64,000 nt of DNA from assembly GCF_008365295.1 (NCBI RefSeq), contig NZ_CP043505.1, positions 1,798,001 to 1,862,000 on the forward strand, in the 5' to 3' direction. Each line of letters starts with the position of its first letter. Position 1 is the first letter of the stretch. Made by a program: the position numbers and the translations under genes. This DNA is from Agromyces intestinalis (GTDB lineage Bacteria; Actinomycetota; Actinomycetes; Actinomycetales; Microbacteriaceae). The notes beneath the pieces are model-generated. The model saw only the letters and a program-made list of their open reading frames with translations, ran no database searches and had not been told where the DNA came from. Below, one piece after another: positions 58,073 to 64,000 of the stretch.

Positions 58073-59200
58073 TCACCTGCGCGGATCAACCCCGACCCGG
58101 ACGTGCTCGCCCGACGCGGCGCAGGCGAGGGCCGCATCGAGGTCGGCGAGCGGGAACGTCGCGCCGACGAGCGCCTCGAACGGCGGCGCCGCACCCACGC
58201 CGGCGAGGTAGTCGATGGCAGCCTGCAGGTGCCGGGGCGCGTAGTTGTGCACGCCGGTGATCGTGATGAGGTTGCGCACGATCCGTTCGGGGTCGATCTC
58301 GACGGCGGGCCCGGGAGAGACGCTGCCGACGAGCACGGCCACGCCACTCACGTCGACCGATTCGATCGCGGCGCGCACCGACGCGGCCGCGCCCGAGGCC
58401 TCGATCGCGACGAGCGGCGGGATCGCGCCGAGCGCACGCAGCTGATCGCCCGGATGCCCCGCCGCGGGGTCGAGCACCCACTCGGCGCCGAACGACCTCG
58501 CGAGCGCACGTCGCCGCGGGTCGGGGTCGACGACGGCGACATCCGCCCCGGCCGCGGTGGCCATCGCGGTGGACGCGAGCCCGATCATGCCTGCGCCGCC
58601 GACCAGCACGACGGCCCCGTCGAGCGGGATCCGCGAGGCTGCGTCGAGAGCGGCGACCGCCGTTGCGGTCGCACACGCGGCCGGTGCGGCGACCTCCGCG
58701 GCGATGCGCGCGGGCACTCGCACGATGCCCGTGCCGGCGCGCAGCTGCACATGCGTGGCGAACCCGCCCGACAGCTCCCAGCCGCGCTCGAGCCGCTCGT
58801 GCCCGTACTTCGCCACCGTGCGGCACTTCTGCGGAACCCCGCCGAGGCAGCGGTCGCACGACCCGCAGTTCGTGGTCACCGTCCACACGATGCGGTCGCC
58901 GAGGATGACGGGTTCGCCGTCGACGGCGAGCACGTGCCCGCCGCCCGCCGCGACGACGCGTCCGACCTGCTCGTGCCCCAGCACCAGCGGCGCGGGCGCC
59001 GGGCGATGCCCGCTCGCGGTGTGCACGTCGGATCCGCAGATGGTGGCGAACTCGACCTCGACGAGCAGCTCGCCGTCGGCGAGGCAGACGCCCGGAACCG
59101 CGATCGGCTCGTGCGGGGTGCCGGGCTCGCTCCACACCATCGCCACCGGCGCGGGGCTGACCGCGACCTCGTGATCGGCCACGCGGGCGACCGTATGCAT
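58073..59200 (-). CDS. Zinc-dependent alcohol dehydrogenase, phosphonate-cluster type
   Basis: A 375-residue medium-chain dehydrogenase. Catalytic zinc ligands: Cys in ATICGSDVH and the GHEQVG histidine/glutamate; structural zinc cysteines in TNCGSCDRCLGGVPQKC; Rossmann motif VLVGGAGMIGLAS. It fits the group annotated as putative phosphonate-catabolism-associated alcohol dehydrogenase (TIGR03366-type), supported by its place at the end of this phosphonate operon, eight bases after the HAD gene. It may oxidise a hydroxyphosphonate to an aldehyde or ketone; the substrate is not proven. Confidence 0.87.
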   Translation of the reverse strand: MHTVARVADHEVAVSPAPVAMVWSEPGTPHEPIAVPGVCLADGELLVEVEFATICGSDVHTASGHRPAPAPLVLGHEQVGRVVAAGGGHVLAVDGEPVILGDRIVWTVTTNCGSCDRCLGGVPQKCRTVAKYGHERLERGWELSGGFATHVQLRAGTGIVRVPARIAAEVAAPAACATATAVAALDAASRIPLDGAVVLVGGAGMIGLASTAMATAAGADVAVVDPDPRRRALARSFGAEWVLDPAAGHPGDQLRALGAIPPLVAIEASGAAASVRAAIESVDVSGVAVLVGSVSPGPAVEIDPERIVRNLITITGVHNYAPRHLQAAIDYLAGVGAAPPFEALVGATFPLADLDAALACAASGEHVRVGVDPRR

Positions 59201-59208
59201 GACGTGTC

Positions 59209-59958
59209 CTACCCGTCGTGGCGGTCGAGCCCGAGCAGCTCGAGCAGGTCGGCCACCGAGTCGATGATCTCGTCGGCTCCTGCCGCCTCGAGCGCGTCGC
59301 GATCATGCGCGCCCGTCAGCACGCCGACCACGAGACCGGCGCCGGCGTTCACGCCCGATCCGATGTCGCTCGCCGTGTCGCCCACGACGACTATCGCGTC
59401 GACCGAGCTCGCGCCCGTGCGCAGCACCGCGGTGAGCGGCAGGTCGGGGTGGGGGCGGCCGCGGCCGGCCTCGGCGGGCGTGAGGGTGGCGTCGGCGAGG
59501 TCGTGCCAGCCGAGCGCGTCGATGATCGCGTCGCGCGTCGCGGGCGCGAACCCCGTGGTGAGCACCACCGCGACGCCGGCGCCGCGCAGCTCGCGGATCG
59601 TCTCGACGGCACCCGGGATCGCCTCGACGCCGACCTCGGCCACGAGCTCGGCGTACGCCGCCTCGAATTCGGCGTTGGCGCGCTGCGCGGCCTCCTCGTC
59701 GCCGGTCAGCGCGCGGAACACCTCGATCTTCGACTGCCCCATCGTGTCGCGCACGTACCGCAGCGCGGTATCGCGCGCCTCGCCCTCGGGCGCGATGCCG
59801 GCCCGCTCGGCGGCGAGCACGAACGCCCGCTCGACGAGTCCGTCGTCGCGCACGGTGGTGCCGGCCAGGTCGAGGACGACGAGTTCGACGTCGACGGCGT
59901 TCTCGTCGCCGAGCAGGTCGAGTTCGTCGACCGCGGTGATGTCTTCGTGGATGGTCAT
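59209..59958 (-). CDS. Phosphonatase-like HAD hydrolase
   Basis: A 249-residue HAD protein. Motif I is LVVLDLAGTTVRDDG, the DxAGTT form shared with phosphonoacetaldehyde hydrolase; motif II lies in VVLTTGFAPATR, and motif IV in VVVGDTASDIGSGVNAG. A cap helix region follows motif I. This matches the phosphonatase-like group (TIGR03351-type) rather than classic PhnX. It would cleave the C-P bond or a phosphate ester of a phosphonate-derived intermediate. Its ATG overlaps the FAD oxidoreductase stop (ATGA); AGGATCC precedes it. Confidence 0.88.
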   Translation of the reverse strand: MTIHEDITAVDELDLLGDENAVDVELVVLDLAGTTVRDDGLVERAFVLAAERAGIAPEGEARDTALRYVRDTMGQSKIEVFRALTGDEEAAQRANAEFEAAYAELVAEVGVEAIPGAVETIRELRGAGVAVVLTTGFAPATRDAIIDALGWHDLADATLTPAEAGRGRPHPDLPLTAVLRTGASSVDAIVVVGDTASDIGSGVNAGAGLVVGVLTGAHDRDALEAAGADEIIDSVADLLELLGLDRHDG

Positions 59959-62887: not shown

Positions 62888-63771
62888 CGCGCGGCCTCTT
62901 CGGCGACGGCGCGGTCGGCGACCTCGGCGGTCGGCTCGGCGTCACTGCCCGACACCGCGGATGCCGCGACATCCGCCGTCTCGAGCTCGGCCTCGATCGC
63001 CTGCAACTCCGCGGTCGCGGTCGCGACCCGGCCGTAGATCTCCATCACCTGGGTCTTCGTGAGCCCCTCGGTGGGGGTGTCGAGCACGACCTCGCCGTGG
63101 CGCAGGCCGATGATGCGGTCGCCCCACGAGAGCGCGAGGTCGACCTGGTGCAGGCTGCAGACGACGGTGAGCCCGGCGTCCATCGCGATCTCGCGGATGA
63201 GCGACATGACCTGCTCGCTCGACTCGGGGTCGAGCGAGGCGACGGGTTCGTCGGCGAGCAGGATCTCGGGCTCCTGCATGAGCGCGCGGGCGATCGCCAC
63301 CCGCTGCTGCTGACCGCCCGACAGGGTGTCGGCGCGCTGGTACGCGCGGTCGAGCAGGCCGACCCGGTCGAGGTGGCCGAGCGCGGCGAGCTTGCGCGAA
63401 CGCGGGTAGCTCCAGAGCCCGAGGCGCGGGCCGCGCAGGGTGGAGAGGGTGCCGGTGAGCACGTTCTCGAGCACGGTGAGGCTCGGTACCAGTTCGAACT
63501 GCTGGAACACGAAGCCCACCCGGCCGCGCAGGGCGCGGAGGCGCCGCCCCCTGAGGGACGGCACCTCCTCGCCGAGCACGCGCACCGATCCGGTGGTCGG
63601 CAGTTCGAGGCCGTCGAGGTGCCGCAGCAGCGTCGACTTTCCCGAGCCCGAGAGGCCGAGCAGCACGACGATCTCGCCGCGCGCGACGGTCAGGCTCGCG
63701 CCCTGGAGGGCGACGGTGCGACCGAATCGCTTGTCGAGGGCGTCGACCTCGATGACGACGGGGGCGTCCAT
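62884..63771 (-). CDS. phnC: Phosphonate ABC importer ATPase
   Basis: A 295-residue ABC ATPase of the PhnC type. Walker A GLSGSGKST, Q-loop FVFQQFELVPSLTVLENVL, signature DTLSGGQQQRVAIARAL, Walker B ILLADEPVASLD, and H-loop CSLHQVDLAL. The last 50 residues after the core (about 245-295) form an acidic alanine/glutamate-rich tail not usual for PhnC. It lies between phnD and phnE and is coupled to phnE by ATGA. Confidence 0.93.
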   Translation of the reverse strand: MDAPVVIEVDALDKRFGRTVALQGASLTVARGEIVVLLGLSGSGKSTLLRHLDGLELPTTGSVRVLGEEVPSLRGRRLRALRGRVGFVFQQFELVPSLTVLENVLTGTLSTLRGPRLGLWSYPRSRKLAALGHLDRVGLLDRAYQRADTLSGGQQQRVAIARALMQEPEILLADEPVASLDPESSEQVMSLIREIAMDAGLTVVCSLHQVDLALSWGDRIIGLRHGEVVLDTPTEGLTKTQVMEIYGRVATATAELQAIEAELETADVAASAVSGSDAEPTAEVADRAVAEEAAR

Positions 63772-63842
63772 GGTTCCTCCGGGTGGGCGGTGCGGATGGT
63801 GCGGGGTGAGGTGCTGATGAATCGGATCTCAGGCCGTGGCCG

Positions 63843-64000
63843 TCAGCCCTGGCACTGCTTCGCGTTCGTCTTCTCGCAGATGTCGCGGATGGTGTCGTAG
63901 TACGCGTCGTCGACCGGCTTGGTCTCGAAGAACACCGACCGGAACCCGTCACTGTCGGCGCTCGTCACGCCCGACTCGATGATCTGGTCGATCGTGACCT
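63843..64000 (-). CDS. phnD: Phosphonate-binding protein, C-terminal part
   Basis: The last 51 residues of the phosphonate ABC binding protein, cut by the window end. The visible part ends AYYDTIRDICEKTNAKQCQG, in two pieces matching the C-terminal helix of PhnD-type proteins, with two cysteines (DICEK, AKQCQ) that could form a disulphide outside the cell. It is followed by phnC after a 71-base gap. Confidence 0.8.
   Translation of the reverse strand, partial: VTIDQIIESGVTSADSDGFRSVFFETKPVDDAYYDTIRDICEKTNAKQCQG

Follow-up and report, generated by a model that had tools for sequence, protein, structure and literature searches.

How could phosphorus be released from phosphonates by an operon that encodes neither a C-P lyase nor the transaminase PhnW, and what would an alcohol dehydrogenase contribute to this? 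These questions are raised by six closely spaced minus-strand genes (58073-64000), in the order phnD, phnC, fused phnE, hpnW, phnX-like and hpnZ, at the end of a 64,000-nucleotide stretch of Agromyces intestinalis DNA (contig NZ_CP043505.1, positions 1,798,001 to 1,862,000; hereafter the window). We consider it probable that they constitute a phosphate-scavenging operon with two entries, one for an amine and one for an alcohol, into a single hydrolytic phosphonate pathway. With somewhat less confidence, but still on balance, we favour the view that HpnZ (TIGR03366) is the missing 2-hydroxyethylphosphonate (2-HEP) dehydrogenase. In combination with PhnX, with a PhnX-like protein, or with the pair of an aldehyde dehydrogenase and PhnA, it would complete C-P-lyase-independent 2-HEP pathways in Actinomycetota, Acidobacteriota and other phyla, the operon in the window being the version with two entries. 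The gene order, the family memberships, the active-site residues, the lack of PhnW and PhnJ, and the genomic contexts of HpnZ were read directly. The genes are as follows, with bit scores and curated cut-offs of the respective NCBIfam models.

63843..64000, minus strand: phnD (3' part), phosphonate-type ABC substrate-binding lipoprotein, running past the window to about 64772 (TIGR01098, 166.3 bits, cut-off 112.05)
62884..63771, minus strand: phnC, phosphonate ABC transporter ATPase (TIGR02315, 285.6 bits, cut-off 266.1)
61178..62887, minus strand: phnE, two fused PhnE permease domains, 569 amino acids (TIGR01097, 422.1 bits, cut-off 216.7; PF00528)
59955..61181, minus strand: hpnW, PbfD-type FAD-dependent amine oxidase, predicted to convert 2-aminoethylphosphonate (AEP) or N-methyl-AEP to phosphonoacetaldehyde (PAA) (TIGR03364, 366.9 bits, cut-off 285.1)
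59209..59958, minus strand: phnX-like, HAD phosphonatase, predicted to convert PAA to acetaldehyde and phosphate (TIGR03351, 239.7 bits, cut-off 218.9)
58073..59200, minus strand: hpnZ, zinc alcohol dehydrogenase, predicted 2-HEP dehydrogenase (TIGR03366, 389.5 bits, cut-off 328.1; zinc ligands; gene context)

An earlier note on this DNA had described an operon of coupled genes in which a fused PhnE is combined with a HAD protein, an FAD oxidoreductase and an alcohol dehydrogenase. Indeed, all of these genes are present and matched curated models: when HpnZ, PhnX-like, HpnW, PhnE and PhnC were run against NCBIfam, all five scored above the cut-offs of their families. The coupling was likewise apparent from the sequence, as 4-nucleotide overlaps were found between phnC and phnE (62884-62887), between phnE and hpnW (hpnW ATG at 61181, phnE TGA at 61180-61178) and between hpnW and phnX-like (phnX-like ATG at 59958, hpnW TGA at 59957-59955), and only 8 nucleotides separate the phnX-like stop (59209) from the hpnZ ATG (59200). 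The six genes from phnD to hpnZ therefore look like a single transcription unit. A promoter scan 5' of phnD gave no match.

The same note had seen neither a C-P lyase gene nor PhnW, and had proposed to look at what lies upstream of phnD. Both absences extend to the whole genome, in which no match was found for the C-P lyase protein PhnJ (an E. coli control genome was positive) or, at E≤1e-20, for PhnW. The genes upstream of phnD, beyond the window, encode a divergent GntR/UTRA regulator and then an EamA transporter, not a C-P lyase. A C-P lyase near the operon or elsewhere in the genome, which we considered as a candidate, is thus ruled out by the PhnJ search and by these upstream genes. PhnA was not found in the genome at E≤1e-60, and TIGR03364, TIGR03351 and TIGR03366 are each represented by a single copy.

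HpnZ as a candidate 2-hydroxyethylphosphonate dehydrogenase

The zinc ligands of HpnZ, namely C54, H75, E76 and C175 together with C111, C114, C117 and C125 (numbered from His2), were assigned from the catalytic and structural zinc-ligand positions of zinc-dependent medium-chain dehydrogenases/reductases. They are kept in 79-80 of 80 named relatives. The fold is that of a generic zinc alcohol dehydrogenase (1vj0, Z 47.0; many alcohol dehydrogenases at Z of about 38-41) and does not tell the substrate. Lys124, Lys130 and His133, which occur in 71, 75 and 80 of the 80 relatives and in 0, 0 and 2 of 7 relatives below the cut-off, are specific to the family, but as residue evidence on the substrate they are weak.

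The function of HpnZ was judged from the company that its gene keeps. The relatives were taken from a scan of named genomes, of which the nearest 80 of 560 HpnZ loci, mostly from Microbacteriaceae, were inspected. In a first count by script, the partners were HpnW plus PhnX-like at 49 loci, PhnX-like only at 4, PhnA only at 3, HpnW only at 3, and HpnW plus PhnX-like plus PhnA, HpnW plus PhnX-like plus PhnW, and PhnA plus PhnW at 1 locus each; 18 loci had none. Two loci had to be corrected, L144 having an over-cut-off HpnW as well as a PhnX-like gene and L159 a canonical PhnX; at L163 the HAD match of 83 bits fell just under the threshold of the script. A survey of 248 genomes of the order, in which neighbours were counted within 10 kb, gave 22 over-cut-off HpnZ loci, 19 of them near PhnX-like, 16 near HpnW and 2 near PhnW. 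The high proportions near PhnX-like and HpnW indicate that the gene arrangement is not due to chance. The loci away from PhnX-like are G216 C12, the second copy in G038, and G245. The two surveys share genomes (e.g. G181 and L090), and their counts are not additive.

Informative contexts are those in which HpnZ shares its operon with no amine-handling enzyme. Four loci, namely L134 (Kribbella soli), L153 (Agromyces fucosus), L162 (an Acidobacteria metagenome-assembled genome, MAG) and L058 (genome G245 of the order survey), carry the genes for HpnZ, PhnA, an aldehyde dehydrogenase and a PgtP/GlpT-family transporter side by side on one strand, and none of these four operons includes an amine enzyme. 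The PhnA proteins of L134, L153, L162 and L058 scored 477, 467, 473 and 486 bits (TIGR02335, cut-off 407.55). The best match of the L162 aldehyde dehydrogenase is phosphonoacetaldehyde dehydrogenase, just under the cut-off (603.7 versus 635.65), and the enzymes of L134, L153 and L058 belong to another clade. At L159, also an Acidobacteria MAG, hpnZ overlaps a gene for a PgtP/GlpT-kind transporter and is directly followed by a canonical PhnX (TIGR01422, 302.3 bits, cut-off 220). No amine enzymes were found among ten flanking genes inspected in L162, L159, L058 and L134, a single one of which was without a Pfam match. Whole-genome searches in 12 genomes revealed neither an over-cut-off PhnW nor any HpnW in G223, G245, G488 (L162), G491 (L159) and G494 (L164), and in the first four of these HpnZ is paired with an enzyme that consumes PAA or phosphonoacetate. 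The genomes of L134 and L153 do have an HpnW, at another place.

These contexts bear on the strongest alternative, in which HpnZ would reduce the acetaldehyde released by the PhnX-like protein to ethanol, for detoxification and NAD+ recycling, and the HpnW oxidase would be the single entry. Acetaldehyde is indeed the product of PAA cleavage, the fold of HpnZ would be compatible with such a reaction, and the gene mostly lies near PhnX-like, as counted above. However, acetate and phosphate are the products of the PhnA route, in which no acetaldehyde is formed. Acetaldehyde reduction cannot therefore explain the presence of HpnZ in the PhnA operons of L134, L153, L162 and L058, and HpnZ is moreover missing from many clusters of HpnW and PhnX-like. 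We consider this alternative unlikely. By contrast, PAA is common to the settings with PhnX, PhnX-like, PhnY/PhnA and PhnW, and 2-HEP is the alcohol that is one dehydrogenation away from PAA. On these grounds, HpnZ is predicted to be a 2-HEP dehydrogenase, which would oxidise 2-HEP to the same PAA that HpnW makes. We infer the substrates and activities in A. intestinalis, the 2-HEP step included, from these contexts and from the family assignments.

A second alternative, less probable still, is that the substrate of HpnZ is a different hydroxylated phosphonate, such as a hydroxy-aminoethylphosphonate, and that another step leads from it to PAA or phosphonoacetate. A modified AEP or a hydroxyphosphonate had been suggested as substrate in the earlier note, and the TIGR03364 description, as quoted in PMC10590968, names 1-hydroxy-2-aminoethylphosphonate. 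The alternative is, however, difficult to reconcile with the operons that pair HpnZ with PhnX, or with PhnA plus an aldehyde dehydrogenase, and that include no ammonia-removing enzyme, while a single oxidation of 2-HEP yields PAA directly.

Several observations weigh against HpnZ as a 2-HEP dehydrogenase within a hydrolytic pathway. After the corrections, 17 of the 80 HpnZ loci have no PhnX-like, PhnX, HpnW, PhnW or PhnA in their flanks. The operon of PhnA and HpnZ is represented by four loci, and PhnA was found in 3 of 261 genomes of the class, beside HpnZ in none of them. G488 and G491 are MAGs, so that absences there are weak; G245 and G223 are near-complete. The genome-wide absences cover PhnW and HpnW, the PAA makers PbfA, PbfB and PbfC and the family TIGR03329 not having been part of these searches. 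The invariant Arg65, which we had regarded as a possible phosphonate-binding signature of HpnZ, was rejected as not specific, since 6 of 7 relatives below the cut-off carry Arg there too. The equivalent of His56, a residue named as catalytic for B. cereus PhnX in a passage of PMC11203657, is absent from all 37 PhnX-like proteins (Val in 17, including the window protein, and Ala in 20). Lastly, no published activity was found for any HAD of TIGR03351, and no measured activity of HpnZ was found in the literature.

In the open-licence literature no paper was found that gives HpnZ or TIGR03366 a function. The term 'HEP dehydrogenase' was found there only in PMC12366243 (2025), an excerpt of which states that this activity was proposed as a less likely role of PbfF, assayed and excluded. 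Bacterial use of 2-HEP by C-P lyase, with release of ethylene, is described in part of PMC5649143. If the prediction for HpnZ is true, 2-HEP would be used hydrolytically with no hydrocarbon released, and TIGR03366, so far labelled as 'phosphonate-associated' only, would receive a function. With HpnZ as a named candidate, the question of the 2-HEP dehydrogenase becomes directly testable. 2-HEP is a common natural phosphonate, and according to Shao et al. it is reportedly an intermediate common to several phosphonate biosynthetic pathways.

Further HpnZ loci may be mentioned in their own right. In A. fucosus (L153:6996-12568), the separate operon reads PhnA, GlpT-like transporter, HpnZ and aldehyde dehydrogenase, followed by a LysR gene on the opposite strand. 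In a Latescibacterota MAG (L164:7848-11086), HpnZ is located near a gene resembling that for the acylating sulfoacetaldehyde dehydrogenase (483.4 bits versus a cut-off of 600), the enzyme for the sulfonate analogue, and near a citryl-CoA-lyase-like gene and a major facilitator superfamily gene. HpnZ of L164 might act on isethionate or on 2-HEP, and this context adds a hint towards the dehydrogenase assignment. The Agromyces loci L091, L092 and L116 (HpnZ near 10-11 kb) have no known phosphonate partner and share other neighbours, including a short-chain dehydrogenase.

Predicted import, amine oxidation and cleavage of phosphonoacetaldehyde

The PhnE protein contains two stretches matching TIGR01097, and likewise two matching PF00528, within its 569 residues, which shows that it is a real fusion. 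PhnD exceeds the cut-off of the broad phosphate/phosphite/phosphonate family TIGR01098 and falls below that of the PhnD equivalog TIGR03431 (143.9 versus 261.1). With PhnC and PhnE above their cut-offs and a substrate-binding protein present, the system can be classed as a PhnCDE transporter, which would import phosphonates.

The score of HpnW places it in TIGR03364. PbfD enzymes, one of which is annotated as TIGR03364, make PAA by oxidising N-methyl-AEP and AEP, and PbfD2 acts where PhnW is absent and stands in for it, as reported by Zangelmi et al. (2023, PMC10590968). HpnW of the window fits this type of oxidation, and by analogy it would turn N-methyl-AEP, and probably AEP, into PAA in place of the absent PhnW. 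PAA as the product of HpnW is supported by the finding that PhnW takes the place of HpnW beside the same HAD gene in G039, G055 and G140; in G103, a fourth genome in which PhnW adjoins the PhnX-like gene, HpnW is present as well.

The PhnX-like protein belongs to TIGR03351 and is not a member of the canonical PhnX family TIGR01422 (83.4 bits, cut-off 220). Alignment of 37 PhnX-like proteins, including that of the window, to B. cereus PhnX showed that the equivalents of the nucleophile Asp12, the Schiff-base Lys53, Asp186 and Asp190 are kept in all 37 and that of Met49 in 36; the equivalent of Cys22 occurs in none. An apparent loss of the Schiff-base lysine was traced to local phmmer alignments to solved PhnX that were out of register, and was dismissed because the family alignment has Lys53 in 37 of 37. 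A passage of PMC10574752 describes a Schiff base between PAA and the catalytic lysine of PhnX, and an Asp that also takes part. Judged by its key residues, the PhnX-like protein may well work as a phosphonatase, yet it is not a PhnX: its cap lysine would form a Schiff base with PAA, and the C-P bond would be hydrolysed to give acetaldehyde and phosphate. Its predicted structure (pLDDT 90.3) shows a capped HAD fold and matches many HADs with a C1 cap equally well (3iru, Z 22.2; 1swv, Z 22.1; top Z 24.4), PhnX being one of these close matches, so that the substrate is not told by the fold. Since canonical PhnX was found above the cut-off in 0 of 197 genomes of the class, it appears that the phosphonatase of actinobacteria is TIGR03351 and not canonical PhnX.

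Cleavage by the PhnX-like HAD of a related beta-carbonyl phosphonate instead of PAA, the substrate of the operon being one not yet named, would agree with the missing His56 and Cys22 equivalents and the low TIGR01422 score, but is the least probable of the alternatives considered, as the cap lysine and HAD motifs are kept, the gene is linked in four genomes to PhnW, whose product is PAA, and a canonical PhnX holds the same partner place beside HpnZ in L159.

Distribution in the order and relation to known pathways

Over-cut-off matches in the order survey were found in 21 genomes for HpnZ, 29 for HpnW, 28 for PhnX-like and 5 for PhnW. The over-cut-off HpnW loci lay near PhnX-like in 28 of 31 cases. 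When below-cut-off matches were included, 42 PhnX-like places were obtained, 28 of them near HpnW and 4 near PhnW. Gene maps showed that the order GntR-PhnD-PhnC-PhnE-HpnW-PhnX-like-HpnZ recurs in family f1 and is rearranged in family f7, that PhnW replaces HpnW in the clusters of family f20, and that many clusters of HpnW and PhnX-like are without HpnZ. HpnZ was present in 1 of 257 Acidobacteriota genomes, and a plasmid search for pairs of PhnA and HpnZ gave 3 records. One copy of the operon in G021 (L059:8033-10038) has its PhnX-like and hpnZ genes each broken across two reading frames, as if by decay or mis-sequencing.

The closest known system is the PbfD2-PhnX pathway of Mariniblastus fucicola, which, as described in PMC10590968, likewise relies on a PbfD-group FAD oxidase, forms PAA without PhnW in a genome that lacks PhnW, and ends in hydrolytic cleavage. 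The operon in the window differs from it by its TIGR03351 hydrolase, by the addition of the zinc alcohol dehydrogenase HpnZ and of a PhnCDE transporter with fused PhnE, and by its actinobacterial host. In that paper, PbfD is assigned to degradation clusters of Proteobacteria, FCB and PVC, and the homologues from Terrabacteria are described as lying outside phnWX/phnWYA clusters. The PhnWX phosphonatase pathway of the B. cereus type also has PAA as intermediate and a HAD hydrolase with a Schiff-base lysine, whereas here PhnW is absent and the hydrolase is under the PhnX cut-off and without His56. The PhnWYA pathway is resembled by the relatives L134, L153, L162, L058 and L167, in which HpnZ is accompanied by PhnA and an aldehyde dehydrogenase; the window, however, has neither PhnA nor PhnY, and a HAD is used. 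Degradation of 2-HEP by C-P lyase, as described in part of PMC5649143, shares 2-HEP as a phosphorus source, but it is another enzyme system, which gives ethylene, and PhnJ is absent here.

The hydrolytic route of the earlier note, in which the FAD oxidoreductase, the alcohol dehydrogenase or both make the aldehyde for the HAD, remains the best reading: the FAD arm has been published for homologues (PbfD, PMC10590968), and the arm of the alcohol dehydrogenase gains support from operons in which HpnZ is joined by PhnA plus an aldehyde dehydrogenase, or by canonical PhnX, and by no amine-handling enzyme. The operon is less unexplained than first thought, as PbfD has been characterised and NCBIfam already names all three enzyme families, two of them being phosphonate-associated by description. 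Its core is published chemistry and largely known, the new part being the testable identity of HpnZ and the dual entry of amine and alcohol.

Two other features of the window were noted. An imperfect palindrome of about 80 bp (57965-58045) is located between the end of hpnZ and a convergent copper ATPase gene. DNA resembling it recurs at 13 other genomic places, on both strands in most cases, and the stretch enclosing the palindrome has a folding z of -4.7. It is a member of a dispersed palindromic repeat family and possibly serves as a terminator. At 54556-55233, this actinobacterium encodes a protein that is predicted to be membrane-anchored and that has a collagen-like Gly-X-Y repeat.

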